From Streptomyces mirabilis (GTDB lineage: Bacteria > Actinomycetota > Actinomycetes > Streptomycetales > Streptomycetaceae), in assembly GCF_018310535.1 (NCBI RefSeq), contig NZ_CP074102.1, positions 1,178,001-1,242,000 on the forward strand: a stretch of DNA of 64,000 nt. Direction: 5' to 3'. This document shows, in pieces, positions 13,461 to 42,599 of the stretch; the first letter of the stretch is position 1, and each line of letters begins with the position of its first letter. The translations under genes and the position numbers were made by a program. The notes under the pieces were generated by a model that did not search any database, had not been told where the DNA came from, and saw only the letters and a program-made list of their open reading frames with translations.

Positions 13461-14069
13461 TCAGCCCTGGGGAGAATCTGGGGAGTTTCCACTGGCATGC
13501 AGATCCCCCTGCCTCCCCAGCAGTCCGTCAATGGCCGTCCGGCCCTTGCTTCCGGCCTCCGGCATGAAGTGAGCATAGTAACCGAGGGTGATCGCCGGCG
13601 AGGAGTGCCCGAGCCACCGCGCCACGGTCACTACGGACTCTCCCGCCTCCGGCATGATGGAGGCGTAGGTATGCCGCAGCACGTGGAAGCCGCCCTTCGG
13701 CGCCGCCTCCCACTGCCAGTTCTTCGCCCCCTCTGCGCGCGGCGGGATGATTCCTGCCTTGGCCGACGCGGGCTTCCAGGTGTAGGTGTTCCACGTGTTC
13801 ACCGCAATGGCGTTGCCGAATCGTGTAGTGAGCAGCAGAGCGAACTTCTTTCGCTGCCCCTCCGCCTCCGGCCTTCCCCACGGGAGCTCTACCTTCACCC
13901 GCGGAAACGCCTCGACATGGCGCTTCAACTCCTCGGCCACCGAGGAGGGCATGTCGACGACACGGGTCTTCTTCCCCTTCGGCAGGGCGAAGTACAGCCT
14001 CCCCTTGATCGCCTGGACTTGGCGGCGGACATGAATCACTCCTCTCGCGTAGTCGACGTCCTCGCCCCC
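13461..14069 (-). pseudogene. Tyrosine recombinase (integrase), C-terminal remnant
   Basis: About 200 codons of the catalytic half of a phage-type integrase. Homology starts near GEDVDYARGVIHVRRQVQAI. HVLRHTYAS provides the HxxR, and the nucleophile Tyr is in TLGYYAHFMPEAG. The first catalytic Arg and the whole N-terminal DNA-binding part are missing; upstream DNA is unrelated. No tRNA gene or obvious att repeat is beside it. It marks the left edge of the accessory region. Confidence 0.85.
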
Positions 14070-14134
14070 TCCAGCGGGCGTTCTTCCTGTCGAGCCAGGT
14101 TGCGTGCTTGACCGTGGGGACGTGGGAGAACGAG

Positions 14135-14251
14135 ATGTACCTGCGCAAGTACAAGGGCTACACGCACGACAGGGGCCGCCACAAGAAGGCCGTGATCGCT
14201 GTCGCTCGTCAGCGGGTCTCCATCCTGTGGGCCATGCTCCGGGACGGCCGG
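14135..14251 (+). pseudogene. IS110-family transposase, C-terminal scrap
   Basis: About 39 codons read RKYKGYTHDRGRHKKAVIAV and then ARQRVSILWAMLRDGR, which match the usual end of IS110 transposases (ARRRxNVLWALxRD). The reading frame continues beyond without family resemblance. It abuts the response-regulator scrap at about 14252. Confidence 0.6.
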
Positions 14252-14256
14252 GTCAG

Positions 14257-14489
14257 CGGGCTCAGGACGAGTTGTTCGGCGATCTCCGTGTTGGACTTGC
14301 AGTACGCGGCCAGGGCCGTGACCTCGCGTTCGAGGTCGGTCAGGGCTCTGACGGCTTCGGGGAGAGCGAGGAAGCCGTCGGTGTCCGGGGCGGCCAGGAA
14401 GCGGGTGATGAGGGCCCGGGTGGCGGTGGGCGAGAGAAGGGAGTCGCCGGCCGCGACGGTGCGGATGCTCGACAGCAGGTCCTCGGGCA
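14257..14489 (-). pseudogene. NarL/LuxR response regulator, internal scrap
   Basis: Reading leftward: LPEDLLSSIRTVAAGDSLLS, then TRALITRFLAAPD and LTDLEREVTALAAYCKSNTE..IAEQLVLSPLT. This is the linker and start of the LuxR HTH of a NarL-type regulator. The receiver domain is absent and the HTH is cut at about 14257. The right-hand break coincides with the terminal repeat of the ISAs1 element. Confidence 0.7.
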
Positions 14490-15807
14490 AGGCTTCGGCG
14501 TAGTCGGACGGCGTCCGATTTGTGGCTAAGCGAGGTCGACTTCGGCAAGATCGAAAACCTTCGCATCGCGCCACGCCGCGGGAGGGGGTGGCGGCATCCC
14601 GCCATGGTGCGAAATCACCTTCTGACCAACTCCGCGAGCGTCCCGGGGCCGTACCCGGGGAGATCCCGGGCCTGCTGGAGCGTCTGGCCGAGGTGCCCGA
14701 CCCTCGCGATCCGCGCGGCGTACGGCACGCTCTGGTCGTCATGCTTGCGCTGACCGCGTGCGCGGTTCTGGCCGGAGCGACCTCCCTGCTGGCGGTGGGT
14801 GAGTGGATCACCGACGCCCCGCCGTCCGTCCTGGAGCGTCTCGGCGTACGGCCCGATCCACTGTCCCCGAAGCGGTGCCTGCCGGCGGAGGCGATGGTGC
14901 GTCGGTTGCTGGGTCGCATCGACGGCGACGCGTTGGACCGGGCAGTGGGCCGCTGGCTGGCCGACCGGCGCGCTGGGGCCGACGGCCGGCTGCACGCAGT
15001 GGCGGTCGACGGCAAGACCCTGCACGGAGCGGCCAGGGCCCACGGGGCGCACGATTCATCTGCTCGCCGCCTGCGACCACCTCTCCGGCCTGGTCCTGGC
15101 CCAACTCGACGTTGGCGAGAAGACCGACGAGATCACCTGCTTCCCCCTCTGCTGGAGACCCTCGCCGATCTGGCGGGCGTGGTCGTGACCAGCGACGCCA
15201 TGCACACCCGGCGCGAGCACGCCAGCTACCTGCTCGGCCGAGGCGCGCAGTACATCGTGATCGCGAAAGGGAACCAGAAGAAGCTCCATAAGCAGCTCAA
15301 ATCCCTTCCCTGGAAGCAGATCCCGCTGTAGGGCCGCACCCACGACACCGGCCACGGCCGCGGTGAGATCCGCCGCATCAAGGTGTGCACGGCGAACAAC
15401 CTGCTCTTTCCCGCCGCCCGCCAGGCCATCCAGCTCAGACGCCGCCGAATGGACCGCAAGACCGGCAAGGTCAGCATCAAGACCGTCTACGCGGTCACCA
15501 GCCTCACTGCGGAACAGGCCACACCCGTCGAGCTCGCTCGGCTGATCCGCAGCCACTGGAAGATCGAAGCCCTGCACCACGTCCGAGACGTGACGTTCGC
15601 CGAGGACGCCTCTCAGCTGCGAACCGGCTCCGCACCCCGCGCCATGGCGACCTGGCGCAACCTCGCCATCGGCGCCCTTCGCCTCGCCGGGAAGAGCAGC
15701 ATCGCCTCCGGCCTCCGGCCCAACGCCCGCGATGCCAGCCGACCTCTCGCCCTCCTCGAACTCACATGATCACGAAACGGACGTCACGCGACTACGCCGA
15801 AGCCCTG
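14488..15807 (+). mobile_element. ISAs1-family insertion sequence, decayed
   Basis: A 1,320-bp element bounded by near-perfect terminal inverted repeats: CAAGGCTTCGGCGTAGTCG at 14488-14506 and the reverse complement of CAGGGCTTCGGCGTAGTCG at 15789-15807 (18 of 19 match). The inside is almost filled by one broken ISAs1 transposase gene. The flanking 8 bp do not form a direct repeat, so either side has been rearranged since insertion. Confidence 0.8.
14522..15769 (+). pseudogene. ISAs1 transposase, two frameshifts and one amber stop
   Basis: The product reads well as an ISAs1 transposase: [111 protein letters not shown]. The frame is lost near 15045, continues in another frame to about 15145, returns to the first frame, then meets TAG at 15329 where relatives have Gln. 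The remaining 145 codons stay open in the same frame. It cannot make active transposase. Confidence 0.85.
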
Positions 15808-17855: not shown

Positions 17856-18536
17856 TCAGCCCGCTGTCAGTTCCGTCGGCGGCAGTGTGTGCTGGGTGCG
17901 GATCACCTTGGTACGGAGGTAACGGACGTTGTGGGCGGTGGTGAAGACGCCCGTGGGAACATGGTGGGCCACCGTCAGGCCCAAGGTGCGCAGCTGGGCC
18001 GCCTTGTCCGGGTTGTTGGACAGCAGGTCCAGCTCAAAGATGCCGAGGGCGGCGAGCATCTGAGCGGCGGCGGTGTAGTCGCGGGCGTCCTCGGGGAGGC
18101 CGAGGGCCGCGTTGGCCTCGTAGGTGTCGAGGCCCTGGTCCTGGAGGGCGTAGGCGTCGAGCTTGTTGTAGAGGCCGATGCCGCGTCCCTCCTGGCGGAG
18201 GTAGAGCAGGACGCCTCCGCGGTCGGCGATGCGTTCGACCGCCTCGCACAGTTGGGGGCCGCAGTCGCAGCGGGCCGATCCGAAGACGTCGCCGGTCAGG
18301 CACTCGGAGTGCAGGCGCACCAGCGGGGGCCGGCCAGTGGCGGGTTCGCCGAGGATGACGGCCACGTGTTCCTGCCCGTCGGCGAGGTGGTGGAAGGTGG
18401 CGAGGTCGGCGGTCACCGTACAGTCGTCGCCGAAGTGGAGCGGGACCGTCACGCGGGTGCGCACCGTGGCTGCCGACAGGCCCGTCGGATTGCTGCTGCT
18501 GTCGCTGGATGCGGTGGCGTTGCGTGAGTCGCGCAT
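17856..18536 (-). CDS. ribA: GTP cyclohydrolase II
   Basis: A 226-aa stand-alone GTP cyclohydrolase II (no DHBP synthase domain). Zinc ligands are in CLTGDVFGSARCDCG. LVRLHSE, LRQEGRGIGL (substrate/catalytic region), YEANAALGLPEDARDY and LLSNNPDKAAQL are all typical. It opens GTP to the first pyrimidine intermediate of flavin or deazaflavin synthesis. A Ser/Thr-rich 25-residue N-terminal tail is extra. As the last gene of the DyP/DUF4331/TPR/Adh group it may supply flavin or a GTP-derived cofactor to that system; this is inference. Confidence 0.95.
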   Translation of the reverse strand: MRDSRNATASSDSSSNPTGLSAATVRTRVTVPLHFGDDCTVTADLATFHHLADGQEHVAVILGEPATGRPPLVRLHSECLTGDVFGSARCDCGPQLCEAVERIADRGGVLLYLRQEGRGIGLYNKLDAYALQDQGLDTYEANAALGLPEDARDYTAAAQMLAALGIFELDLLSNNPDKAAQLRTLGLTVAHHVPTGVFTTAHNVRYLRTKVIRTQHTLPPTELTAG

Positions 18537-18630
18537 GTCGGTCTGCTTCTCCGGGGCGGCGGTTGGGGGTGTTGGTCGCGCGATGGGCCGACTCCGTCGC
18601 CGGGGCGGCCCATCGCGCTCGGTCGACTCG

Positions 18631-19677
18631 TCAGGGAACGAGGATGAGGCGGATCGGATCGCCGATCTTGTTCTCCAGGCGGTGGATCGCCTCGGGGGCG
18701 TCGGCCAGGGAGATGTGGTCGGTGATGGACGGGGCCAGGTCGAGACGGCCGCCGCCGGCCAACCGGATCAGCTCGTAGACGTGATCGAACGAGGATCCGT
18801 AGTGTCCGAACACCTTCTTGTTCTTCAGGTTGAAGGTCATCTTCTCCGAGATCTTCAGCGGCTCGGTCGTGATACCTACCAGGACGAGCGCACCGTGGTT
18901 ACCGAGGAGAGGCGACGCCTGCTCCCGGACCCGGGGAACGCCTGCGAAGTCGAAGGCGTAGTCCAGGCCCAGGCCGTCGGTGGCCCGCAGCACGGATTCT
19001 TCGAAACCGGGGTCGGACGGGTCGAGCGCGATATCGGCGCCGAACGCGAGGGCTCGCTCACGCGCATTGGGCAGCGGGTCGACGGCGATGATCGGCGTGG
19101 CACCCATCATGCGGGCCAGCCGGACAGCATGGGCGCCCACCCCGCCGACTCCCCAGATACCCACGGCCTGGGCGGAACGCACCTGCACGGTGTCGACCAG
19201 GGCCGCGTACGAGGTGGAAACGGCGTCGGGGATGATCGCCGCCTGGTCGAAGGGAAGTGTGTCGGGGATGGGGACGACGGTGTCCTCACGGGCGATCGTG
19301 TACTGGGACCAGCCACCGTCGTAGTCGACGCCGCGGCCGCGGAACGATACGCACGTGCCGCCGCTGACACAGCGGGCGCACTCGCCGCAGGGCTGTCCCG
19401 CCTGCAGGGCGACCCGTGTGCCGACGGCCAGGTTGCGCTTGAGGCCGGGTCCCAGGGAATGGATGACGCCGGAGAGCTCGTGCCCGAGGGTGAGCACGTT
19501 GGAGTTCAGGTGCAGCGGCGTGATGCTTCCGTCGATGAGGTGGAGGTCGGAGAGGCACACGCCCGCCGCCTTCACCTCGATCAGTACTTCGCCCGGCCCG
19601 GGTACGGGGACCGGGATCTCCTCCATGACGAACTTCTTCGTGTCCAGGTGGACGCGTCCTGCCAGCATGGTGTCCAT
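18631..19677 (-). CDS. Zinc-dependent alcohol dehydrogenase (MDR family)
   Basis: A 348-aa enzyme from ATG 19677 with GAGAAGG upstream. Catalytic-zinc Cys is in KAAGVCLSDLHLI and GHE in LTLGHELSGVI. The four structural-zinc Cys are in GQPCGECARCVSGGTC. The NAD(P) fold is GIWGVGGVGAHAVRLARMMG followed by IIAVDPL. It is about two-thirds identical by eye to the enzyme at 41553, and a third copy is a fragment at 38.5 kb. It sits between the TPR gene and ribA; the spacer to the TPR gene is 221 bp. Confidence 0.92.
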   Translation of the reverse strand: MDTMLAGRVHLDTKKFVMEEIPVPVPGPGEVLIEVKAAGVCLSDLHLIDGSITPLHLNSNVLTLGHELSGVIHSLGPGLKRNLAVGTRVALQAGQPCGECARCVSGGTCVSFRGRGVDYDGGWSQYTIAREDTVVPIPDTLPFDQAAIIPDAVSTSYAALVDTVQVRSAQAVGIWGVGGVGAHAVRLARMMGATPIIAVDPLPNARERALAFGADIALDPSDPGFEESVLRATDGLGLDYAFDFAGVPRVREQASPLLGNHGALVLVGITTEPLKISEKMTFNLKNKKVFGHYGSSFDHVYELIRLAGGGRLDLAPSITDHISLADAPEAIHRLENKIGDPIRLILVP

Positions 19678-19898
19678 CGTTTTGGGCCTTCTCGGTAGTG
19701 GTTGCTGATTTGGAGTGCTGCAGCGGTCCGTGGGACCACAGAGGGGTGCGCCGAGAGGGGCCAAGCGATGGGGGCATCAGCCGATATGCGGGGCCACGTT
19801 TGCCCCTGGCGGGCTGGTGCAGGGTCGGCCGAACAGCGTGCCTGTCCGTCCGGCCGCCCCCGTCGGTGCTCCATATCGCCGGCATCGCCGCTCGGCGG

Positions 19899-20972
19899 CT
19901 ACGGGGCAGCTTGTGCAACCCGGTTCTGCGCGAGGACAGCGCGCTGGAACAGGGCATGGGCTCGGGACGTCTGGCGGAATGCGAGGTTCTGCAGCGCCAG
20001 TTGGAGCCCCCGCTCGGCATCGGCCCCCGCGGTGAGCCAGAAGTCGGCCGCGTGGTCGGCGTAAGCCTCCGGGTGACGCAGCACAAGTTCCTCGTAACGC
20101 GCCGCCGCGCGCTCGCGCCACTGGTTCGCCTCCTGAACCCTGTCGCACGCGTGCAACGCGGCCGCGAGGTGGCCGGCGTACTCGGGGTCGTCGCTGGCCC
20201 GGGTGAGGGGTCGCAGGAGGGCGACGGCACCGTGAGGCTCTCCGCGCAGCAGCTCGACCTCGGCCAAGTGGCCCAGTGCCGGCGCGTAGTCGGGCACGCG
20301 GCGCCGGGCGGCCTCGTAGCACGAGCGGGCCGCATCGAGATCGCCCTCACGGTGCCACATCACACCGCGCCGGAAGTCCAGCTGAGCGAGTGGAAACGGT
20401 GAGGTCCCCTGATAGTGGCGCCGCGCCTCACTGAACAGCTGCTCCGCCTCGGTGACCTCCCCGCGCTCGGCCTGGAGTACGGCGAGCGAGCCGAGCGTCG
20501 TGAAGTCGCTCTGCCGCTCCGCCGCTTTGTGGATCAGGGCTGTGGCATCCGTGTAGCAGCCGAGGGCCTGCAGGACGACGGCTCGTTCCGCGTCCAGTGT
20601 GGCCTCGTCCGCACCGCTCCGGCCCGCCGCGCCGAGGTCGGCAACTGCCTCGGCGAAGCGGTGCAGGGTCGCCCGCGTCCTGGCGCGGGCGAGCAGGGCC
20701 GTGCCGTCCTCCGGTGCGACGTGCACAAGCTGTTCGGCGAGTTCCGCGGCCTGCTCGTAGTCGGCGACGCGGCCCAGGATGTGGCCTCGGAGGTTGAGGA
20801 GGTCGATCAGGGCCGCCCCTTGCGCCACCGCCAACGGAGCCCATGGCGTCTCCCCGGTACCCGCACGGCTGAGCCGTACGGCCAGGCCATCGATCTGCCC
20901 GTGCAGATTCGTTACGGCGATGGTGCCGTTCGTCGTGACCGGCTCCCTCTCCTGGGGAGACGCCCCGGTCAT
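19899..20972 (-). CDS. TPR-repeat protein
   Basis: A 357-aa soluble protein built of about seven TPR-like helix pairs from residue 60 on (for example ADYEQAAELAEQLVHVAPED, GDLDAARSCYEAARRRVPDY, PEYAGHLAAALHACDRVQEA). The first 45 residues are Thr/Gly-rich. No catalytic domain. Its ATG overlaps the stop of the DUF4331 gene (ATGA), so the two proteins are made together, and the TPR protein probably scaffolds or escorts a partner of the cluster. Confidence 0.8.
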   Translation of the reverse strand: MTGASPQEREPVTTNGTIAVTNLHGQIDGLAVRLSRAGTGETPWAPLAVAQGAALIDLLNLRGHILGRVADYEQAAELAEQLVHVAPEDGTALLARARTRATLHRFAEAVADLGAAGRSGADEATLDAERAVVLQALGCYTDATALIHKAAERQSDFTTLGSLAVLQAERGEVTEAEQLFSEARRHYQGTSPFPLAQLDFRRGVMWHREGDLDAARSCYEAARRRVPDYAPALGHLAEVELLRGEPHGAVALLRPLTRASDDPEYAGHLAAALHACDRVQEANQWRERAAARYEELVLRHPEAYADHAADFWLTAGADAERGLQLALQNLAFRQTSRAHALFQRAVLAQNRVAQAAP

Positions 20973-22141
20973 GCCGCTTCCTCGCGGGGAGGCATCTGCG
21001 CGGCCAGGCGGGCACCCAGGTCCGGCGGGGTCGTGTTGGGAGCGTTCAGGTAGGGGAATGTGTCGGTGGCCAGCTGAGTGGGCTCGTCGACGCCGTCACT
21101 GATGCGCTCGCCGTCGATGCCGCCGACCACCAGCGTGTAGAGGGTGTCCACGATGTCGTCGTTGAGCGACCGGCCACCGCAGGTCGTGTGCGGGCGGCCG
21201 GCGAGCAGGGCGGTCTCGATCTCGAAACAGCCGTCCTCGGAGAAGGGCTTGGACAGGTCGACGACGAGGAAGTCCGCCAGCAGCAGTTCGGTCAGCGGGT
21301 GAGCACCCTGCTCGTCCAGTGGCCAGTCGGTCTTGCCGTCCAGGCCGTCGTAGAAGGCCAGGTTGGCGTTGAGCCGTGCGCGGTAGGTGCTCGCATAGTC
21401 GGGCCGCAGGCTGAAGGCGTCCTCCTCGTTGAAGAGGTCGCGGATCTCCAGATCGCTGTTGACGGTGTCGAACTTCTTGGGCGACATGATCACGTTCTTG
21501 ATCTCCGGCCGGCCCATGCGCTCCAGCCGGACCGGGCGTCCACCACCGGAAGTCAGGGTCTCGCCGACGACCGCCACCAGCGAGCCGGCGGCCGGGCCGA
21601 GCACCGCGGCGTCGATTTCGAGCACGATGCTCAGCGCGTTCAGGCCCTCCAGAACGTTGCTGGCATCAGACCTGAAGGACAGCTTCCCCGTCGCCTCGGT
21701 GGCTATCACGCCCACGAAGTCGATGAAGAACGGGTCGAGCCGCGACCCGGCGAAGATCTTCAGTCCCTCGGCCTCGGTGGGCACCTCGTTGCCGACCTGG
21801 AAGGAGACCTTCCGGCCGCCGGGCGCCTGGCACGTGCCCGCCTGCACCAGGGTGTCCGTGCCGCCGACCTTCTGGGGGGCGTCGAAGGTGAAGTCGAAGA
21901 CGTACTCGTCCTCTTCGACATTGAACGCCGCAGCGGCGCCCTCGCTCACGGACGTGATCGGCCGGACGCGGAAACGGTGGGTGATCGCGTCGGAGAACAG
22001 GGCTGTAGGGGCCGAGGCCGGGAGCACGTTGAGGACGAGCACCAGGTTTCCCGGCCGCTCCGGGCTCGGGAAGGCGTACACGTCGCAGATGTCGGACGCG
22101 GGGTCCGCGATGGCACGCGGTCCGGAGAAGTGGTCAGCCAT
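20969..22141 (-). CDS. DUF4331 family protein
   Basis: A 390-aa protein. It starts MADHFSGPRAIADPASDICD with the DUF4331 hallmark (DH.SGPRA..DPA.DI.D.Y.F), then LVLVLNVLPASAP and YVFDFTFDAP. The later part has GRPVRLERMGRPEIKNVIMS and LLADFLVVDLSKPF. No signal peptide is evident, unlike many secreted members. AAGGAG lies 9 bp before the ATG. Function of the family is unknown; here it is coupled to a TPR protein and follows a DyP peroxidase by 36 bp. Confidence 0.85.
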   Translation of the reverse strand: MADHFSGPRAIADPASDICDVYAFPSPERPGNLVLVLNVLPASAPTALFSDAITHRFRVRPITSVSEGAAAAFNVEEDEYVFDFTFDAPQKVGGTDTLVQAGTCQAPGGRKVSFQVGNEVPTEAEGLKIFAGSRLDPFFIDFVGVIATEATGKLSFRSDASNVLEGLNALSIVLEIDAAVLGPAAGSLVAVVGETLTSGGGRPVRLERMGRPEIKNVIMSPKKFDTVNSDLEIRDLFNEEDAFSLRPDYASTYRARLNANLAFYDGLDGKTDWPLDEQGAHPLTELLLADFLVVDLSKPFSEDGCFEIETALLAGRPHTTCGGRSLNDDIVDTLYTLVVGGIDGERISDGVDEPTQLATDTFPYLNAPNTTPPDLGARLAAQMPPREEAA

Positions 22142-22177
22142 GAGGAACGCTCCTTGTCGTGTTGCTTGTGAGAGATG

Positions 22178-23506
22178 TCAGGTGTTGAGATCGGCAATCC
22201 AGCGCAGCGCCGACAGTCCGGGCATGAAGCAGTACTCGCCACCCCGGTTGACGACGAACGGCGGTAGCCCCTTGAAGCGGCGGCGGATCGGTTTGCGCGG
22301 GACGGTGAACCCGCCGTCGTCGTTCGTGCCGATCAGCGGGTCCTTTTCCGCGGGCGCCCCGATGAACTTGCCGTCGTTGACCCACTGCCGCTGGACGAAC
22401 TCGAACTGCCGGTCCAGGTTTGCTCCGACAAAGGCGAAGATGATGCCGCGGTCGGCGCCGTCGTCCTCCAGCACTCCCTTGGGCAGCGGCGGACCATAGG
22501 TCGTACCGCGCCGGATCATGCGGTGCAGGCGCACCTCACCGGTGACGACCGCATCCCGCGGGTTCATGCGCCGGGCGTGGGCGCCCACGGGGCACTTGAG
22601 GCCCTCCGGGTCGTCGCCGTACATGAACTCGTTGTTGCGCTTGGGATCGGCACCGAGTTCCGGATCGTCCTTGTCCGGCGTCAGCGCCAGCGGGGCGCCG
22701 CTGGGCCAGCGGCCGACGAGCTTGGCCGCCAGCAGCTCCTCGTCGGCGGTGTCGGTGGCGCGCTCGTGGAGGTACTTACGGAACTCGGCCACTCGTGTGT
22801 GCAGCTTACGGAAGGCCACGTACGTTCCGTTGCGCCCGAGCACCTCAGGCTGCGGAACGGGTGTGATGCCATGGGTCTCGTTCTTGTATCCGGTGATGAA
22901 CTCGCCTGCCCTGAGCGGCTCTTCGTACGGATTGGTGCCGGGGATGCCCGTGCCCTCGATCGCCGGCTGACCGATGCCGTCCCGGAAACCGAACGGTTCC
23001 TTCTCGTCCGGTCCGACGTGCACGTCCTGCTGCCAGATGGCAACGACGTCGGGCAGATCGCGCAAGGCGTCGCGGACCAGGAGGAGGACCGTCTCCAGGC
23101 GAACGGTGTCCGGGGCGAGGCCGGCCAGTATGAGGTGCACGTCCTTCGAACCGAGCGGGCTCTCCCAGTTCTCCGGCGCGTTTTCCCCGACGTCCCCGAT
23201 GTACTCCGCCCTCGCGGCCATGCCCTCGCGGAACTCCTCCGGGAAGGCGGCCAGCGACTCCTCGGGCACCCCCAAGGCCTTCAGGCCCTGGAAGCTGAGT
23301 GCCACCGCGAGCGAGACCTGACGCTCGGGGTCGAACGCGGCGACCGAGTCGAGGGCCGGGGTGAGCCGCCGCAGCAGCTCGCGCCCCTGCCGCCGGTCGT
23401 CGATGCGCAGGGCGAGGTAGGCGCCCGCGTAGGGCGTCGGCCGTGGCTCCAGAGCGGCGGCCTGGATGTCGTCGAGCTCCAGGGCGTTGCCCTTCTCGAT
23501 GCTCAT
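22178..23506 (-). CDS. DyP-type heme peroxidase
   Basis: A 442-aa dye-decolorising peroxidase. The catalytic Asp lies in GFRDG (Asp about residue 176), and the proximal heme His is probably H310 in CPVGAHARRMNPRD, which also carries the conserved Arg. It has the double ferredoxin-like build of the longer classes and no Tat signal, so it is likely cytoplasmic or encapsulated. GGAAGG precedes the ATG. It is the second gene after the TGAGACA-type promoter. Confidence 0.93.
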   Translation of the reverse strand: MSIEKGNALELDDIQAAALEPRPTPYAGAYLALRIDDRRQGRELLRRLTPALDSVAAFDPERQVSLAVALSFQGLKALGVPEESLAAFPEEFREGMAARAEYIGDVGENAPENWESPLGSKDVHLILAGLAPDTVRLETVLLLVRDALRDLPDVVAIWQQDVHVGPDEKEPFGFRDGIGQPAIEGTGIPGTNPYEEPLRAGEFITGYKNETHGITPVPQPEVLGRNGTYVAFRKLHTRVAEFRKYLHERATDTADEELLAAKLVGRWPSGAPLALTPDKDDPELGADPKRNNEFMYGDDPEGLKCPVGAHARRMNPRDAVVTGEVRLHRMIRRGTTYGPPLPKGVLEDDGADRGIIFAFVGANLDRQFEFVQRQWVNDGKFIGAPAEKDPLIGTNDDGGFTVPRKPIRRRFKGLPPFVVNRGGEYCFMPGLSALRWIADLNT

Positions 23507-23582
23507 GATGCCTTCCAGAACTGTCTTGCGCGGACGGAGTCGTCACGCGGGTCGTGGGAGGGGGGCGGGGGTGGTGCCCCTT

Positions 23583-23614
23583 CCCGGAGGGGGTGGGGGT
23601 GGGCCCCCTCCGGG
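23583..23614. terminator. Hairpin after the 209-aa gene, copy A
   Basis: CCCGGAGGGGG (23583-23593) and CCCCCTCCGGG (23604-23614) form a perfect 11-bp stem with a 10-base loop. It lies between the 209-aa gene and the DyP gene on the leftward transcript, so it could trim expression of the downstream genes. The same hairpin is at 29539-29570 in copy B. Confidence 0.6.
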
Positions 23615-23622
23615 GGTGTGGG

Positions 23623-24252
23623 TCAGCTGGCGGCCTGGGCGAGCAGTGGCTTGAGGGCCGGGTGCTGGAGGGCTTCCTCGGCGGCGGGGTTGTCCAGGAC
23701 GTCCTGGAAGGCGGCGTTGATCTGGTGGGCCTTGGCGATCTCCGGCATCGTCAGGGAGCCGACCGGGTTGAAGTAGGCGGCGGCCTGCTGCTGCCCGTCC
23801 TGCAGGATCTGCTTCATGCCGGCCATGTTCGCGAGGATGTGCTCCTCGAAGCCCTCGCGGGTCTTGTCGCCGGTGAGTGCCTCGAGGCCGCCGGACTTCT
23901 CGATCCACGGGGCGATCTTGGTGTCCCACTCGGTGGTGTGCTGCATCCAGTCCACGAAGTGCTCGAAGCCGACGGTCAGGAACGCGTCGTCGATGTAGGG
24001 GTCCCACTCGGTCTCGAAGGTGGTGGCCCACAGCAGGCGCGTGCCGTTGTCGAAGACCACGTGGCGGGAGTCACGCAGACCGGTCTTGATGGTGGCGGCG
24101 ATGTCGCCCTGCCGCAGGGCCTCGCACATCCGCTGGCAGGCCGCCGCCACCTCCTGCTCATGTCCCGGCTTGACGTGGAAGTAGGTGGCCAGCTCGGAGA
24201 CGACACCTTCGGTGCGGCCCTTGCCCGCCTTCTTCGTGATCGAAGCGGTCAT
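23623..24252 (-). CDS. DyP-cluster protein of 209 aa, copy A
   Basis: The start is fixed by GGAGGAAATC before the ATG at 24252. The N-terminal half (ELATYFHVKPGHEQEVAAAC, then HVVFDNGTRLLWATTFETEW followed by DPYIDD) has the beta-alpha-beta look of a dimeric ferredoxin-like (ABM/DyP-type) fold. The C-terminal half is helical (WDTKIAPWIEKSGG, EGFEEHILANMAGMKQILQD). No catalytic motif is certain. It is the first gene downstream of the TetR-type operator and is followed by the DyP peroxidase. An identical gene is at 29579. Confidence 0.75.
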   Translation of the reverse strand: MTASITKKAGKGRTEGVVSELATYFHVKPGHEQEVAAACQRMCEALRQGDIAATIKTGLRDSRHVVFDNGTRLLWATTFETEWDPYIDDAFLTVGFEHFVDWMQHTTEWDTKIAPWIEKSGGLEALTGDKTREGFEEHILANMAGMKQILQDGQQQAAAYFNPVGSLTMPEIAKAHQINAAFQDVLDNPAAEEALQHPALKPLLAQAAS

Positions 24253-24344
24253 GATTTCCTCCATGAGAGACCTTGTGCGCAAATGCAGTGGCATGAGCGG
24301 TATCTGCGGATAGTCGCGGGATCTGCCTTTTCGCAACCCCGATG

Positions 24345-24389
24345 TGAGACAGATTGACTCACAGAGAGTCTATGAGTCAACTTGTCTCA
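24345..24389. promoter_or_regulatory. Double TGAGACA operator, copy A
   Basis: Two 17-bp sites, TGAGACAGATTGACTCA (24345-24361) and TGAGTCAACTTGTCTCA (24373-24389), which are also reverse complements of each other apart from two bases. They lie 93-137 bp before the 209-aa gene. The same class of site stands before the tetR gene at 26391, making that protein the likely binder. Confidence 0.75.
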
Positions 24390-24540
24390 GAGAGACCTGT
24401 GTCACACCGATTCAGTCCAGGTGCGCAGTGATCGGGTCGGTGGCACCCGCCCGGACTGCGAGCCGATCGGTTGGTGCCGACAGGTTCGGCCGACTGCTGC
24501 CGAAGCCGGGAACTCGGAGGTGACAGGAACCCGCAGCTCT

Positions 24541-24735
24541 TCATGGGGCGAGACGGAGCTGGGTATAGGCGGCGAGGATCAGGCAGGTCCATCGGTCGCC
24601 TGCCTCGGTGGGGCGGATCTTCGGCGAGGTCCAGCTCAGGGTCTGTTTGAACAGGCGGAATGGGCCCGAGCAGACGCGGCCGGTGTAGCCCAGGCCGTCG
24701 CCGCAATCATCGCCGTCGCACGCTAGCTGGAGCTT
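24541..24735 (-). pseudogene. Transposase remnant
   Basis: The leftward frame reads GPFRLFKQTLSWTSPKIRPT and EAGDRWTCLILAAYTQLRLA, then stops at 24541. This resembles the middle of a common Streptomyces transposase (FKQTLGWT.PKIR.P.AADRWTWLILAAYTQLRLAR). Both ends are missing. The plus-strand DNA to the left, back to the operator, holds nothing recognisable. Confidence 0.5.
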
Positions 24736-24803
24736 GTCCGTTCGATCATGGTGGAGGCAGCCGGTCAAGGGAGCGAATGCGCTGCCACGTAAGCTCCGCG
24801 AAT

Positions 24804-25601
24804 ATGGATGACGTCACCCCGCCCTCCAGCTTGCTGCCGGTTTTGGCTGGTGGTGAGCCTGGCGAGACGGCAGCCCCGCTTCTGGACCGGTTGCGTGTTG
24901 CCGTTTCGCGGCGGCTTGCCGCAAATCTGCCTGTGCCAGGCTCGATGGTGCAGTGGGTGGATGAGGAGGTGGACGCTTTCGCCGACGACTCAGAATTGCT
25001 CGGCGTGCTCTTCGACCAGTTGCTTCATGCCCACGCACTGGACACTGCGACTGCAGGTGCGGCGGTGCTTCTCGCGGATGTGGTCATCGACAGTCGAGCC
25101 GCTGCCGCTGTACGTGCCGCACTGACGGTGACGCTGGCCGAAGCGGCGACGGCCGCGCTGCGTGAAGAGGCGCTGGATCCGCAGGGGTTCGTCAGTGCTG
25201 AGGCTGTGCTGCGGCAGCAGACCGACAGCGAGCGAGCTGTCCGGCAAGCCGTTCGAGGGGAGGCTCCCCGCCTGTTTGCGCAATGGGACGAGGAGCCTGA
25301 AGTGATGCAGTTCGCGCTTGCCGTGCTTGCGGCCGCCTGCGCCGGGACTGATGTCATCACGCGGATCGCAGGCCTGGCCACTGTGTGGCCGGAAACCCCT
25401 CGGGCGGCCACCTTGGCGTTGGCCTGTGCTCTGGCCGCTGACAATGAGGAGGCGATCGCGGAAGCTCTTGGCGAGACCGTCAGCCATCCCGATTACAACC
25501 CTGACGCCCAGGGAGATCCTGAGGCTCTCGTGCAAGGCCAGGGGCTGAGCCTCCTGATCGACCTCGCACAGCGTGAGATCGGCCCCCTGGTCTTCCACTG
25601 A
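24804..25601 (+). CDS. Hypothetical helical protein
   Basis: A 265-aa ORF from ATG 24804, starting MDDVTPPSSLLPVLAGGEPG. Almost all alpha-helical and rich in Ala/Leu/Glu (VQWVDEEVDAFADDSELLGV, AAVRAALTVTLAEAATAALR, FALAVLAAACAGTDVITRIA). No signal peptide, membrane segment or known motif. No clear ribosome site. Its third-position GC looks lower than that of neighbouring genes, suggesting a separate origin. Confidence 0.6.
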   Translation: MDDVTPPSSLLPVLAGGEPGETAAPLLDRLRVAVSRRLAANLPVPGSMVQWVDEEVDAFADDSELLGVLFDQLLHAHALDTATAGAAVLLADVVIDSRAAAAVRAALTVTLAEAATAALREEALDPQGFVSAEAVLRQQTDSERAVRQAVRGEAPRLFAQWDEEPEVMQFALAVLAAACAGTDVITRIAGLATVWPETPRAATLALACALAADNEEAIAEALGETVSHPDYNPDAQGDPEALVQGQGLSLLIDLAQREIGPLVFH

Positions 25602-25640
25602 CGAACCGATCGGCTACGGGCTGCGAAGCCAGATGACGAC

Positions 25641-26395
25641 GTGGCGGGCGCGCCACGGGGCTGCGACAAAGAGCGGTACTCGGCCGGACAAGCCCTAGTC
25701 GACGGCGGCTACACCTCCCTGGTGTACCTGGAACAGGCCGGTCAGAAACACAAGGGCACGGTCACCGACCGCTTCCGGGCAACCCCGCCCGCCAGCACCC
25801 CGGGAACGAAGGCTTCGGCCAGGACGGCTTCCACATCGACTTCGACCGCCGACAGGTGAACTGTCCCCAAGGCCAGGTCAGCAGAGGCCGGCACGGCCCC
25901 TACCCAACCTCCTCGCCCACCGCGGCCGCACTGATCGTGGCGCGGTCACCAAGGGCCAGTGCCAGCCGTGTTCGGTCCGTGCCCAGTGCACCACCTCACG
26001 CGACAGCGCCCGGAACGCGGGCTTTCCCCCACGAGAACTCCGCGACCCGCAAGTCCGCTTCCGTGCCGAACAGCAGACGCCCGATGGGCAGCCCCGGTAT
26101 GCGATTCACTCCGGGGCCGAGGGGCGCCGTCAACGAGCTCGCTGACGGACACGGTATGCGCCGCTGCCGCTAACAGGGTCAGTCAAAGGCCCACCTACAA
26201 CAGGTCTTCACGCCCCTCGCCGTGAACATCGAGCGCCTCAGCGGTCCGGCGCCGACCGGCAACGCAACCCCGCCCCGGTCACCGACCGCCGTCCAGGACT
26301 TCCTGGACCAGCACGGGATCCCTCGACTGACGTCCTGGCGGGCCGTCAGCGGCCGACCTCGACGACTGCAAGATCCCCGACAGCGTCAAGCTAGG
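25641..26395 (+). pseudogene. IS1182-family transposase, decayed C-terminal part
   Basis: Recognisable pieces in successive frames: [90 protein letters not shown]. These match the last half of IS1182 transposases in order. There are several frameshifts, and TAA follows MRRCR where relatives have Tyr. The N-terminal half is gone. It ends against the tetR gene. Confidence 0.75.
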
Positions 26396-26978
26396 ACCAG
26401 CCCCGCATAGCGGCATCCACGACGGAGTCCACGGTGTCACGTCCGAGGCGGTTCCCGGCGAGAAAGCGCTCGAAGAACAGGGGGCCCGCGGTAGCCATGG
26501 CAAAGGTCTCGGGGGTGACGTCGGACCGGAGCTGGCCGCGCTCCACGGCCGCGGTGACAGCGGGGCGCAGGGCATCGGCGATCTGGTTCAGCAGCGACTC
26601 CCGGAGGCGGCGTATGCCTTCGTCATGCCGTGAGCTGCCAAGGATCGCAGCCAGGACGGCACCGGCCTGCTCGTCGTCCCACCGCTCGGCAAGCACGCCC
26701 AGACGGTGAACGAGCTCCGCTCGCGGATCGTTGCCCGAAGCGGCCCGAAGCTCCTCAGGCATCGGAGGCAAAGGCGGCATGCCGGCTTCCAGCGCGGCCA
26801 AGCGGAGGTCGAGAAGGCCGGGCCAGTGCCGATAGACGGTGGCTCTGCCTACGGCGGCACGGGCGGCAACCGACTGATGCGTCACGGCCTCCAGCCCGCC
26901 CTCCGTGAGCAACGCGGTGGCCGCCGAGACCATGGCGTCGCGGCTGCGCAACAGACGCGGATCGGTTCTGTCTTCCAC
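26391..26978 (-). CDS. TetR-family repressor (TGAGACA operator)
   Basis: A 195-aa protein. The HTH lies at residues 15-60 (AATALLTEGGLEAVTHQSVA, then RAAVGRATVYRHWPGLLDL). The C-terminal ligand domain has LRPAVTAAVERGQLRSDVTP and GPLFFERFLAGNRLGRDTVD, typical of the TetR_C_11-like group. A TGAGACA-type double operator lies directly upstream, and the same site stands before both copies of the 209-aa gene, so it probably represses itself and the DyP/DUF4331 cluster. The MFS exporter gene lies upstream on the same strand; the inducer is likely an exporter substrate. Confidence 0.88.
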   Translation of the reverse strand: MEDRTDPRLLRSRDAMVSAATALLTEGGLEAVTHQSVAARAAVGRATVYRHWPGLLDLRLAALEAGMPPLPPMPEELRAASGNDPRAELVHRLGVLAERWDDEQAGAVLAAILGSSRHDEGIRRLRESLLNQIADALRPAVTAAVERGQLRSDVTPETFAMATAGPLFFERFLAGNRLGRDTVDSVVDAAMRGWS

Positions 26979-26995
26979 CTCTCCATTCCCTTCCG

Positions 26996-27039
26996 TGAGA
27001 CAATCCGACTTACAGCTTACTATGGGACATTCTGTCTCA
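26996..27039. promoter_or_regulatory. Double TGAGACA operator before tetR
   Basis: TGAGACAATCCGACTTA (26996-27012) and TGGGACATTCTGTCTCA (27023-27039): outer half-sites TGAGACA and TGTCTCA are exact, inner ones partly degenerate. Spacing between the two sites is 27 bp against 28 bp in the 209-aa gene promoters. Autoregulation is likely. Confidence 0.7.
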
Positions 27040-27200
27040 GATGGAGGGAACGGGGCAGCTCAGAGAATCTGCGCGACTCTCCCGAGGCCGCCCCGTCAAA
27101 AGTACCCGGACACTGCCCCCTTTGATTCCTCGTGCACGGCAGCTGTCGCAGCGGGTGACTGCACGACCTGCGCCCCTTCTCAGACAGACCCGTTCGTTGA

Positions 27201-28712
27201 TCACATGTGAATGACGGGCGCGGCGTTCCCGTCCTGCCGCGGCACGCCGCGGCGGTAGAGCAGGGCGGTCACGCCCAGGCCGATGACGAAGATGGCCGCC
27301 GACCACCAGTAGGCGGTGGAGTAGCCCTCGAGGCCGGCCTGGGCCAGGACGCCGGGGTCCTTGGGGTTGCGGCCGGAGAGGTAGCCGGTGACGGCGTCCG
27401 AGGCCATCGTGCTGAGCAGGGCGACGCCGATGGACCCGCCTACCTGCTGGACGGTGTTGACGGCGGCGGACGCAGCCCCTGCATCGGCCGCGGCCACGCC
27501 GGAGGTGGCCAGGCTCATCGCGGGCGCGATGACCGTGCCCAGCCCGACGCCGACGAGCATCAGCTGCGGCAGTACCGACGTCACGTATCCGCTGTTCAGG
27601 TCCAGCGTGGTCATCCAGACCAGGCCGGCGGCCGCAATGGCCATGCCCAGCGGTACCACCGGCTTGGGGCCTATACGGGGCACCACGACGTTGTTGGCCA
27701 CGGCGGAGGCAGACGACGATGCCACGATCATGGGCAAAAAGGCGAAGCCGGTCTTCAGGGCGCTGTAACCGAGGCCCTGCTGCAGGTAGTAGGTCAGGAA
27801 CAGGAACACGCCGAACATGCCCGCGCCGCTGACGAAGAGGGCGGCGAAGGAGGCGCCGCGGTTACGGTCGAGGAGGACCCGCAGAGGCAGCAACGGATAC
27901 GCCGTCCTGCTCTGCCGCCAGACGAAGAGGGCCACCAGTACGGCACCGGCCGCCAGCATGCCCCAGGTCATCGCCGAACCCCAGCCGTGGGTCTCGGCGT
28001 TCGAGAAACCGTAAACCAGGCAGAACAGGCCGGCGGAGACCAGCAGGGTGCCGGGAATGTCGAGCTTCGAGGACCTGTCGCGCGGGGTGCGGTGCAGCAG
28101 GGCTGCGCCACCGACGAACGTCACCACTGCGAAGACCACGTTGACGTACATGGTCCAGCGCCAGTCCAGGTACTCGGTCAGCACCCCGCCGAGGATCAGG
28201 CCGATGGCTCCGCCCGCACCGGCGACCGAGCCTGCGACGGTGAAGGCTTTCGCCCGCTCGCGCGGATCGGTGAAGGTGGTCATCAGGAGCGACAGCGCGG
28301 ACGGGGCCAGCAGGGCGGCGAACCCGCCCTGGATCGCGCGCGCGATGACGAGCATGCCGAAACCGTTCGCCGCGCCTCCCAGCATGGAAGCGGCCGCGAA
28401 GCCGGTCAGACCCACCAGGAAGGTCACCTTCCGTCCGACCAGGTCTGCGACCCGGCCGCCGAGCAGCAGCAGGCTGCCGAAGGCCAGCGCGTAGGCGGTG
28501 ACCACCCACTGTCGGTCGGCGTCCGAGAAGCTCAGGTCGCGCTGGGCGGACGGCAGAGCGATGTTCACGATGGTGCCGTCGAGGACTCCCATCAGTTGGG
28601 CGAGGGAAATGACCATCAGAATCCACCAGCGGCGCTGGTGTGACGGGTCGACAGGCACATTCTCCGGTGCGGTCTCAGCGCCGCGAGCAGCGGCGACGGT
28701 GTTCTGTGACAT
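27201..28712 (-). CDS. MFS drug exporter, DHA2 (14-TMS, EmrB/QacA) type
   Basis: A 503-aa membrane protein with about 14 hydrophobic segments. Motif C-like and antiporter features: LAQLMGVLDGTIVNIALPSA in TM1, GGRVADLVGRKVTFLVGL (motif A) after TM2, and GAGGAIGLILGG (motif C) in TM5. ATG 28712 is chosen over 28766 because GGAGGG lies 10 bp before it. Probably proton-driven efflux of small hydrophobic compounds. Flanked by tetR downstream and an NDH-2 remnant upstream. Confidence 0.92.
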   Translation of the reverse strand: MSQNTVAAARGAETAPENVPVDPSHQRRWWILMVISLAQLMGVLDGTIVNIALPSAQRDLSFSDADRQWVVTAYALAFGSLLLLGGRVADLVGRKVTFLVGLTGFAAASMLGGAANGFGMLVIARAIQGGFAALLAPSALSLLMTTFTDPRERAKAFTVAGSVAGAGGAIGLILGGVLTEYLDWRWTMYVNVVFAVVTFVGGAALLHRTPRDRSSKLDIPGTLLVSAGLFCLVYGFSNAETHGWGSAMTWGMLAAGAVLVALFVWRQSRTAYPLLPLRVLLDRNRGASFAALFVSGAGMFGVFLFLTYYLQQGLGYSALKTGFAFLPMIVASSSASAVANNVVVPRIGPKPVVPLGMAIAAAGLVWMTTLDLNSGYVTSVLPQLMLVGVGLGTVIAPAMSLATSGVAAADAGAASAAVNTVQQVGGSIGVALLSTMASDAVTGYLSGRNPKDPGVLAQAGLEGYSTAYWWSAAIFVIGLGVTALLYRRGVPRQDGNAAPVIHM

Positions 28713-28781
28713 GGGGACAGCCCTCCAGGCGGCGGACGGGGGTACGGCGGAAAGAGAAAGGGACAAAAACGGGCGGCGAGA

Positions 28782-29535
28782 TCAGGCACGGCTGTGGGAC
28801 GGCGTCGCCGCTTCGGTGAACGGGCCGCGCGGGTGCTCCAGTTCGATGAGGCCGACGGATTCCCGCTTCAGGACCGAGGCCAGGATCCAGTCCACAAACA
28901 TGCGTATCGTGCGGTTCAGTGTCGGCACACGGCTGCCGCGGTAGAGGCGGTGGAACCACCACGCCGGGCGATCCTTGAGTTTGATCCTGTTGAAGAGGAT
29001 CGCGACGCCCTTGCGGAGGCCGATGCCAACCACCGCGCCCAGGTTCTTGTGCTGATACTCCTTCAGCGGACGGCCGCGCGGAGCCGCGATCACGTTGTCG
29101 GCGAGCACCGTGGCCTGGCGTACGGCGTGATGCGCGTCGGGAGGGCACCACGCGCCCTCTTCGGCGGCCAGGTTAGGGAACCTGGGAGTTGTCGCCCGCG
29201 GCCCACGCGCGGTCGAGGCCCCTGACCTGGAGCGTGGGCAGGGTGTCGACGTGGCCACGCGAGCCGAGCGGCAGGCCGAACTGGGCCAAGGTGGGGTTGA
29301 GGCAGACACTGGCCGTCCACACGATCATGGAGGCGGCTATCTCGACACCGTTCGCCAGGACCGCGTGCTGCTCGACGCAGTACTCCATGGAGGTCTCGAG
29401 GTGCACCTCGATCGTCAGCTGAGCCATGACGTGACCGCGCACGCTGACGGCCTCCTCGAGCGACTTCGCACAGATGCCGTGCTCGGCCAGGCCGGGCATG
29501 GGGAACGTGCGGGAGCCACTGCGCCTAGCGGTCAA
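28782..29535 (-). pseudogene. Type II NADH dehydrogenase (NDH-2), truncated and frameshifted
   Basis: The leftward pieces LEEAVSVRGHVMAQLTIEVH, ASMIVWTASVCLNPTLAQFG, VRGLDRAWAAGDNSQVP and, in another frame, APRGRPLKEYQHKNLGAVVG, then KGVAILFNRIKLKDRPAWWF form the C-terminal two thirds of an NDH-2/FAD oxidoreductase. A frameshift lies near 29175, where the GDNSQVP frame meets TAA. The N-terminal FAD-binding GxGxxG part is missing: homology stops at the edge of the 824-bp duplicated block (29538). Confidence 0.85.
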
Positions 29536-29578
29536 GGTCCCGGAGGGGGTGGGGGTGGGCCCCCTCCGGGGGTGGGGG

Positions 29579-30208
29579 TCAGCTGGCGGCCTGGGCGAGC
29601 AGTGGCTTGAGGGCCGGGTGCTGGAGGGCTTCCTCGGCGGCGGGGTTGTCCAGGACGTCCTGGAAGGCGGCGTTGATCTGGTGGGCCTTGGCGATCTCCG
29701 GCATCGTCAGGGAGCCGACCGGGTTGAAGTAGGCGGCGGCCTGCTGCTGCCCGTCCTGCAGGATCTGCTTCATGCCGGCCATGTTCGCGAGGATGTGCTC
29801 CTCGAAGCCCTCGCGGGTCTTGTCGCCGGTGAGTGCCTCGAGGCCGCCGGACTTCTCGATCCACGGGGCGATCTTGGTGTCCCACTCGGTGGTGTGCTGC
29901 ATCCAGTCCACGAAGTGCTCGAAGCCGACGGTCAGGAACGCGTCGTCGATGTAGGGGTCCCACTCGGTCTCGAAGGTGGTGGCCCACAGCAGGCGCGTGC
30001 CGTTGTCGAAGACCACGTGGCGGGAGTCACGCAGACCGGTCTTGATGGTGGCGGCGATGTCGCCCTGCCGCAGGGCCTCGCACATCCGCTGGCAGGCCGC
30101 CGCCACCTCCTGCTCATGTCCCGGCTTGACGTGGAAGTAGGTGGCCAGCTCGGAGACGACACCTTCGGTGCGGCCCTTGCCCGCCTTCTTCGTGATCGAA
30201 GCGGTCAT
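29579..30208 (-). CDS. DyP-cluster protein of 209 aa, copy B
   Basis: The protein is identical to that at 23623-24252, with the same ribosome site GGAGGAAATC. It is followed leftward by the NDH-2 remnant, the MFS exporter and tetR, so in this copy the operator could drive the exporter and its regulator if transcription passes the hairpin. Two intact identical genes imply a very recent duplication or ongoing gene conversion. Confidence 0.75.
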   Translation of the reverse strand: MTASITKKAGKGRTEGVVSELATYFHVKPGHEQEVAAACQRMCEALRQGDIAATIKTGLRDSRHVVFDNGTRLLWATTFETEWDPYIDDAFLTVGFEHFVDWMQHTTEWDTKIAPWIEKSGGLEALTGDKTREGFEEHILANMAGMKQILQDGQQQAAAYFNPVGSLTMPEIAKAHQINAAFQDVLDNPAAEEALQHPALKPLLAQAAS

Positions 30209-30300
30209 GATTTCCTCCATGAGAGACCTTGTGCGCAAATGCAGTGGCATGAGCGGTATCTGCGGATAGTCGCGGGATCTGCCTTTTCGCAACCCCGATG

Positions 30301-30345
30301 TGAGACAGATTGACTCACAGAGAGTCTATGAGTCAACTTGTCTCA
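30301..30345. promoter_or_regulatory. Double TGAGACA operator, copy B
   Basis: Identical to 24345-24389. It lies 93 bp before the second copy of the 209-aa gene. Confidence 0.75.
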
Positions 30346-30596
30346 GAGAGACCTGTGTCACGCCACCGCCTTCAGTTCGCATGCGGCCACGCGGGCGCAG
30401 GCGGCCCCGGCGTTCGAGAGTCGACGTCGGCACACCCGTCGATGGCGGCATCAGCAGAGAGTCCCGACGGCTGCAAGGTCATCAGTCCGCCGCAAGCCAC
30501 GCCTTGACTGTTCGACAGGCCGGCACGGGCCGCGACCAGATCCAGCGGACCGCCCGCCGTTCGACATTTGTAGACATTCCCTGATATCACTGCACT

Positions 30597-41552: not shown

Positions 41553-42599
41553 TCAGGGGACGAGGATGAGGCGGATCGGGTCACCGATCTTTTTCTCCAG
41601 CCGGTTGACCGCGTCGGCGGCCTCGGCGAGCGGGATGTGGTCCGTGATGGAGGGTGCCAGGTCAAGACGGCCTACCTCGGCAAGGCGGACCAGCTCGGTG
41701 ACGGACTCGGGGCTGCCGCCGTAGTGACCGCGCACCTGCTTGCCCAGGTAGTTGAAGGTCAGGCCCTCGGTGATGGTGAGGGGCCTGGGGCTGATGCCGA
41801 CCAGGATGAGGACTCCGCCCAGGCCGAGTGCGGCGGCGGCCTGCTCGCGGACCGCCGGCACACCGGCGCAGTCGAAGGCGAAGTCGAGGCCCCGTCCGGC
41901 GGTGGCGGCGCGTACCTGGTCGGCGAAGTCGTCGGCGGTCGGGTCGAGTGCGATGTCCGCGCCGAAGGCCAGGGCGCGTTCCCGGGCGCTGGGCAGCGGG
42001 TCGACGGCGATGATCGGTGCGGCGCCGACCAGGCGGGCGAGGCGTACGTTGTGTGCGCCGACTCCGCCCACACCCCACACGCCGACGGACTGGGCGGGGC
42101 GTACTCCGGCGGTGGCGACGACGGCGGCGTAGGGGGTCGAGACCGCATCGGGGATGATCGCGGCCTGGTCGAAGGGGAGGCTGTCGGGGATGAGGATGAG
42201 GGTGTCCTCGCGGGCGACGGTGTACTGGGCCCAGCCGCCGTCGTAGTCGATGCCGGCGGTGAGCATCTGGGTGCAGGGACGGCGGCGCACGCAGCCGGCG
42301 CACTGGCCGCAGGTCTTGCCGGCCTCCAGGGTGACGCGGGTGCCGACGGTCAGGCCGCGCTTGAGGTCGGGGCCGAGGGTGTGGATCACACCGGAGACCT
42401 CGTGGCCGACGGTGACCGTGTCGGAGGTGGCGAACAGCGGGACGAGGGAGCCGTCGATCAGGTGGACGTCCGAAAGGCAGACGCCTGCGGCCTTCACCTC
42501 GATGAGGACCTCGCCCGGGCCGGGCACGGGGACGGGGACCTCCTCCACGACGAACTTCTTGCTGTCCAGGTGGAAGCGTCCGGCGAGCATGGTGTCCAT
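41553..42599 (-). CDS. Zinc-dependent alcohol dehydrogenase
   Basis: A 348-aa MDR enzyme, paralogue of 18631. Motifs: KAAGVCLSDVHLI, VGHEVSGVI, structural zinc Cys in GKTCGQCAGCVRRRPC, GVWGVGGVGAHNVRLARLVG for NAD(P). It lies 132 bp downstream of the P450-reductase fusion on the same strand, so it is probably the next step: oxidation of the hydroxylated product to aldehyde or ketone. Start at ATG 42599 (MDTMLAGRFHLDSKK), aligned with the paralogue. Confidence 0.92.
   Translation of the reverse strand: MDTMLAGRFHLDSKKFVVEEVPVPVPGPGEVLIEVKAAGVCLSDVHLIDGSLVPLFATSDTVTVGHEVSGVIHTLGPDLKRGLTVGTRVTLEAGKTCGQCAGCVRRRPCTQMLTAGIDYDGGWAQYTVAREDTLILIPDSLPFDQAAIIPDAVSTPYAAVVATAGVRPAQSVGVWGVGGVGAHNVRLARLVGAAPIIAVDPLPSARERALAFGADIALDPTADDFADQVRAATAGRGLDFAFDCAGVPAVREQAAAALGLGGVLILVGISPRPLTITEGLTFNYLGKQVRGHYGGSPESVTELVRLAEVGRLDLAPSITDHIPLAEAADAVNRLEKKIGDPIRLILVP

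Follow-up and report, generated by a model that had tools for sequence, protein, structure and literature searches.

DyP-type peroxidases are well known enzymes; those loaded into encapsulins and those exported by the twin-arginine translocation (Tat) pathway, such as EfeB and DtpA, have the DyP fold and heme chemistry in common with the peroxidase analysed here. This enzyme is encoded on a 64,000-bp stretch of the 9.6 Mb genome of Streptomyces mirabilis (contig NZ_CP074102.1, positions 1,178,001 to 1,242,000; hereafter the window, genome G000). Six minus-strand genes lie there behind a double palindromic operator, encoding in order a 209-aa protein of a family without a name (U209), the DyP peroxidase, a DUF4331 protein, a TPR protein, a zinc-type alcohol dehydrogenase (ADH) and a GTP cyclohydrolase II paralogue (RibA). 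All six were found where a first-pass annotation of this DNA had placed them.

The nearest solved relative of the window DyP is DrDyP of Deinococcus radiodurans (DR_A0145, PDB 8RE2/8RE3; 439 bits, 48% identical). According to the available text of PMC10820274, DrDyP on its own is almost inactive above pH 4 and has a six-coordinate, low-spin heme at pH 7.5; the authors speculate about interacting or partner proteins, encapsulin being suggested. The DyP that follows U209 in D. radiodurans matches the 8RE2 and 8RE3 chains over their whole length, and a U209 relative lies directly upstream of it, as in the window, its gene stopping one base before the DyP gene. Unlike the window locus, that of DrDyP has no DUF4331, TPR, ADH or RibA gene alongside, and a catalase-family gene follows. 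Within the genus, SaDyP1 and SaDyP2 of Streptomyces avermitilis are class V DyPs to which the window DyP is comparable by description (PMC8395514). That paper describes the physiological role of these Streptomyces enzymes and the physiological substrates of bacterial class V DyPs as unknown; none of the terms neighbor, upstream, operon and gene cluster appears in it.

The window DyP (22178-23506, minus strand; class V-like) scores 103.8 bits with TIGR01413 (cut-off 100.5) and 24 bits with Pfam DyP_N, below the cut-off of 27.5. It keeps the GXXDG motif as GFRDG, where DrDyP has Met instead of Gly, together with the catalytic distal Asp, the distal Arg and the proximal His; the GFRDG Asp, GAHARR and RRG align with the DrDyP residues given in the available text of PMC10820274, in which the numbering is 3 higher. 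By family and residues it is thus a predicted heme peroxidase. In contrast to the Tat-exported DyPs it has no signal peptide discernible by eye, and EfeB is a weak sequence match. The possibility of an encapsulin cargo was rejected: the protein ends in ALRWIADLNT with no C-terminal extension past the conserved end. No encapsulin model matched among the 10 window proteins scanned.

U209 and its pairing with DyP across bacteria

U209 (copy 1 at 23626-24252, minus strand), the putative DyP partner, has no Pfam match above cut-off, no NCBIfam match and, against PDB sequences, no match with an E value below 0.07. The family has at least 7012 relatives among 7998 scored candidates of a protein collection; among the 120 matches listed, all named relatives but one are hypothetical or uncharacterised proteins. 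An AlphaFold model (pLDDT, the predicted local distance difference test, 85.5) comprises a ferredoxin-like N-terminal part resembling ABM, NIPSNAP and MhuD proteins and a helical C-terminal part. Since the structural matches are middling, an ABM-like ferredoxin-like fold is likely rather than proven. U209 differs from the proteins of this fold by its extra helical C-terminal part and by having no credible PDB sequence match, and sharing their fold does not show its function. Residues R63, D84, Y86 and D89, around the motif WDPYIDD, are invariant in 64 alignment rows.

Among 39 loci with U209 relatives in named genomes, of which Streptomyces sp. NBC_01549 holds the closest match, DyP lies next to or near U209 in 38. 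In the remaining locus (L007) the cluster is degraded and retains a U209 fragment, an MFS gene and a RibA gene split over frames. Of 396 Actinobacteriota genomes, seven encode U209, and DyP was found within 1.3 kb in all six besides the window's. A survey of 295 Streptomyces genomes recovered U209 in 37 of them, at 53 places; a same-strand DyP gene is located within 3 kb at 51, with U209 preceding DyP at 47, and the two places without DyP are solo second copies in G000 and in one other genome, G658. In these 37 genomes U209 stands beside 50 of 50 DyP hits of at least 480 bits and beside none of 8 weaker DyP-family hits. Because these genomes had been chosen for U209, the search was repeated with DyP on 256 of the same 295 genomes, unselected for U209, and all 47 places found (E≤1e-100) adjoin U209-like sequence; 46 of these had already been counted, and the 47th (G573) adjoins two weaker U209-like frames. 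The weak point of these counts is that they come from one genus with shared ancestry; moreover, the searches kept the best 6-12 candidates per genome, so that weak copies may be missed.

Outside the Actinobacteriota, the pair is present in Chloroflexota (L008, L009, L122 and L123), Pseudomonadota and Deinococcus. U209 relatives occur in 47 records of a plasmid collection, and all 17 records that we selected from these for examination contain a DyP recognised by sequence, in 15 encoded by a separate gene nearby and in two fused to U209: a 974-aa Rhizobium protein, in which U209 precedes DyP, and a 1620-aa Sulfitobacter protein with the order P450-U209-DyP. All other gene names in this collection, apart from U209, DyP, DUF4331, TPR and the catalase relatives, are taken from the annotation. 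On the strength of the 51 of 53 Streptomyces places, the other phyla and the fusions, U209-DyP is, as judged from gene content, the invariant core of the gene set and no local accident. The adjacency in four phyla, the fusions, the conserved operator described below and the DyP active-site residues are demonstrated by comparison of sequences; U209 would probably form a physical complex with DyP and activate it.

Five distant Streptomyces loci (L105-L107, L111 and L132) carry two tandem U209-like domains before DyP, with a hydrophobic, transmembrane-like stretch between them, judged by eye, in L105 and L106; a catalase-family relative is also present in L105-L107 and L111.

As far as we have searched, DyPs have not been described with a partner family that is near-universal and a regulon defined by an operator. 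In the literature covered, mainly outside subscription journals, no paper was found on DUF4331 and none on DyP together with gene neighbourhood, and the combination of DyP-type peroxidase with a catalase-family protein returned only an unrelated paper. A partner beside essentially every DyP of the clade that was checked, and sometimes fused to it, makes both the class V substrate puzzle and the inactivity of DrDyP directly testable by supplying a single small protein.

U209 is itself duplicated in the window, which the first-pass annotation had overlooked. Positions 23620-24405 and 29576-30361 form an exact 786-bp direct repeat containing the operator and U209, and U209 is therefore present twice in the locus; copy 2 (29582-30208, minus strand) is the same as copy 1 at 627 of 627 bases, and the second repeat copy places the same operator upstream of an MFS gene. 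The two U209 copies are 99.7-100% identical within each of G000, G680 (NBC_01549) and G658, and U209 of G658 is 92% identical to that of the other genomes, a pattern suggesting gene conversion or repeated duplication.

The DUF4331-TPR module and the TetR operator

The DUF4331 protein (20969-22141, minus strand) belongs to a divergent subfamily, scoring 101.3 bits with PF14224 against a cut-off of 27, while canonical members reach about 548 bits; by eye, it lacks the export signal that the canonical DUF4331 of the same genome appears to have. The start of the TPR gene (19899-20972, minus strand) overlaps the DUF4331 stop by 4 bp, as expected from the coupling claimed for these genes beforehand. 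Searched at 377 bits or more, the subfamily is present in 8 of the 295 Streptomyces genomes, in all eight within 2 kb of U209 and with DyP and TPR matches, so that the anticipated co-occurrence of DUF4331, DyP and the 209-aa family was borne out. The probability of the eight falling by chance within the 37 U209 genomes is 3e-8, ignoring kinship. In Anaerolineales and the rest of its phylum (Chloroflexota), the subfamily occurs in 3 of 281 genomes, each time beside U209 and DyP. A plasmid of Bradyrhizobium sp. CB82 (L112) carries U209 twice, DyP, DUF4331 and TPR in a row; its DUF4331 protein is 35% identical to the window's and scores 81 bits with the Pfam model. The four genes recur together in Streptomyces and Flexivirga, in Chloroflexota and on one plasmid of Bradyrhizobium, and are not neighbours in this strain only.

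Gene order varies (U209-DyP-DUF4331-TPR, U209-DUF4331-TPR-DyP, or divergent), and the link of DUF4331-TPR to U209-DyP therefore survives rearrangement. The module is present in only 10 of the 39 named-genome loci, two of them broken (L013 and L022); TPR was not found in L123 or in L075, where the contig ends. Judged from its distribution, DUF4331-TPR is an accessory module on the U209-DyP core. A flavin adenine dinucleotide (FAD)-dependent pyridine-nucleotide-disulphide oxidoreductase follows the module in L006, L008, L009, L099, L100 and L123; none was found beside the window operon. The association with U209-DyP provides a first functional context for DUF4331.

The operator consists of two palindromes TGAGWCANNNTGWCTCA at a spacing of 28 bp, or of 27 bp in L098 and in front of tetR. 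The operator preceding U209 copy 1 spans 45 bp (24345-24389) and reads TGAGACAGATTGACTCA-N11-TGAGTCAACTTGTCTCA; the copy upstream of U209 copy 2 is located at 30301-30345. The heptamer TGAGACA by itself occurs at chance frequency (6 matches versus 5.1 expected). As a spaced pair, TGAGACA-N24..36-TGTCTCA, it has four sites in the 9.6 Mb genome, three of them in the window locus, and the reversed control pattern has none. The fourth genome-wide match (L088, 6163-6200) is at the start of another tetR-MFS pair.

Upstream of the operon lie, besides the second U209 gene with its operator and some remnants, a plus-strand open reading frame without family match and the two genes for which this region had already been noted, namely a TetR-family regulator (26391-26978, minus strand) and an MFS exporter of the DHA2 type (27201-28766, minus strand). 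The tetR gene had been reported to share the same operator; a double operator is indeed present there (26996-27039), in degenerate form, and through it tetR is likely autoregulated. Allowing at most two mismatches per palindrome, the palindrome pair precedes U209, or separates it from a divergent DUF4331 gene, in 15 further Streptomyces loci (L004, which is G680, L005, L011, L013, L014, L016, L022, L025, L028, L034, L097, L098, L125, L133 and L135), and in an alignment of eight operator sequences, the window's included, the palindromes are kept and the flanks divergent. Eight of the 39 named-genome loci hold TetR, and the operator is present in seven of these and in 3 of the 31 loci without TetR (Fisher p 6e-5, for loci related by descent). 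TetR homologues near the operator in relatives are 67-99% identical to the window protein, which presumably binds the predicted operator. The regulator is not universal, as a LuxR-type regulator is located upstream in L008, L009, L099 and L100. The compact regulon and predicted operator offer a handle for finding the inducer.

Proposed mechanism and competing explanations

We think it somewhat probable that the locus encodes a TetR-controlled, cytoplasmic two-component DyP with an ABM-like partner, U209, and with DUF4331-TPR as accessory module, a TetR ligand as inducer and associated efflux. U209 would work with the class V-like DyP; most likely it would bind the peroxidase and either shape the active state or present the substrate. 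The cytoplasmic DUF4331 protein and the TPR protein would dock on the pair, and the module would be completed, in several relatives, by an NAD(P)H/FAD disulphide reductase, suggesting electron supply; electron flow and a part of DUF4331 in it are conceivable on these grounds. TetR would bind the paired palindromes before U209-DyP, before tetR and before U209-MFS; a small compound, toxic or oxidised and probably hydrophobic, would release it and would then be oxidised and exported together. In a few Streptomyces, ADH, to clear aldehydes or alcohols, and a spare RibA, to supply extra flavin precursor, would have been added at the 3' end. The partner chemistry, substrate, electron donor and class of TetR ligand in this scheme are what we infer from gene context. 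Oxidative chemistry on a small molecule, as first suggested for this locus, is still likely. A wider and tentative version, possible though rather doubtful in our judgement, holds that the whole class V-like DyP clade is obligately two-component, with U209 switching on or steering DyP at neutral pH and DUF4331-TPR as a second layer coupling the pair to a flavin reductase; an obligate U209 partner would explain why DrDyP is inactive alone. As far as searched, this coupling is the first role proposed for DUF4331.

A general defence against oxidative stress, in which DyP would simply clear H2O2 or organic hydroperoxides, U209 stabilise it as a subunit, DUF4331-TPR provide a scaffold and MFS, ADH and RibA be unrelated passengers of the regulon, draws on a catalase-family relative (of a Deinococcus or Acinetobacter protein) found by sequence next to U209-DyP in 9 of the 15 plasmid-collection loci with annotation, with a catalase-family gene by name in two more, and on the higher levels of both DR_A0145 and DR_A0146 in D. 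radiodurans after ultraviolet C (UVC)/vacuum exposure, given in the available text of PMC5731708. However, a peroxidase nearly inactive near neutral pH, as DrDyP is in the accessible part of PMC10820274, fits such a function poorly, and TetR together with an MFS pump points, from general knowledge of these families, to a specific compound and not to peroxide; we regard this explanation as unlikely. In an alternative of fatty-acid or lipid-hydroperoxide metabolism, U209-DyP would convert oxidised fatty acids with a catalase-family protein or a P450, TetR sensing acyl compounds and ADH acting on aldehydes. Fatty-acid genes (oleate hydratase, 3-hydroxyacyl-CoA dehydrogenase, acyl-CoA thioesterase or patatin, by annotation) lie near 4 of the 15 loci, in one locus P450, ferredoxin and FAD oxidoreductase genes form a single row with those of catalase, U209 and DyP, and the P450-U209-DyP fusion agrees with this idea. 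The window operon, however, has no fatty-acid genes, nor do 11 of the 15 loci; we consider this explanation distinctly improbable. As these gene contexts (catalase, fatty-acid, P450) differ, the DyP substrate may differ by lineage.

We consider it very improbable that the locus is a biosynthetic or tailoring cluster whose DyP, ADH and RibA produce or alter a secondary metabolite derived from GTP or flavin, for export by the MFS protein. The RibA paralogue presumably keeps the residues of the normal enzyme, and the MFS protein passes the DHA2 efflux model, with antibiotic-exporter models far below their cut-offs; yet RibA is found here in five Streptomyces strains only, most loci examined have the core but neither ADH nor RibA, and the operon has no scaffold-building enzyme.

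ADH, RibA and the surroundings of the operon

ADH (18631-19677, minus strand; ADH_N and ADH_zinc_N) and RibA (17856-18536, minus strand; GTP_cyclohydro2) complete the window operon. ADH follows the module in six Streptomyces strains and RibA in five of them, so that all six genes are together in G000, G658, NBC_01549 (G680), NBC_01340 and NBC_01562, the clusters of the last three being nearly alike; strain Ag109_O5-1 (G683) has ADH after the module but no RibA nearby. The ADH of L005 is a cut remnant, the RibA gene of L007 is split over two frames, and L104 has an ADH, 67% identical, about 4 kb from its broken module. The single gene set proposed in the first-pass annotation accordingly holds for U209, DyP, DUF4331 and TPR, which recur together with a conserved TetR operator nearby; the six genes are not one unit. 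The clusters of NBC_01340 and NBC_01562 (L133, L134 and L135) are carried by linear plasmids, of 1.7 Mb and 1.0 Mb respectively; both plasmids are typed as mobilizable, and the cluster may therefore move between strains.

RibA scores 194.1 bits with PF00925, exceeds the cut-off of NF001591 and, at 195.1 bits, is just below that of TIGR00505 (205.85). By eye it has the motifs HSEC, CDC and DAYALQDQ, which we take to be the zinc Cys and Tyr residues of E. coli GTP cyclohydrolase II. The operon copy appears to be spare, as the window genome has four RibA matches, the nearest other copy being 80% identical. Since a flavoenzyme occupies that slot in relatives, the gene could plausibly raise the supply of flavin. 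Of the cofactors that RibA had been proposed to feed, flavin is circumstantially favoured by the FAD oxidoreductase of the six relatives, and a GTP-derived cofactor is unsupported.

The intergenic gaps from U209 to RibA are, in order, 119, 36, -4, 221 and 94 bp. A search for sigma-70-like promoters found none, with 0.8 expected, and the two terminator-like sites, with 4.5 expected, do not exceed chance; the predicted co-transcription of the six genes is for this reason deduced from their spacing only, and the 221-bp gap between TPR and ADH could contain a promoter. PADLOC anti-phage defence models gave no match among seven proteins. Beside U209 copy 2, positions 28782-29535 hold degraded remnants that by eye resemble an NADH dehydrogenase-type flavoprotein gene. 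A second ADH in the window (41556-42599, minus strand) is 70% identical to that of the operon. Downstream of the operon, at 13461-15769, integrase-like and transposase-like remnants were recognised by eye from open reading frames, hinting that this region is perhaps mobile.

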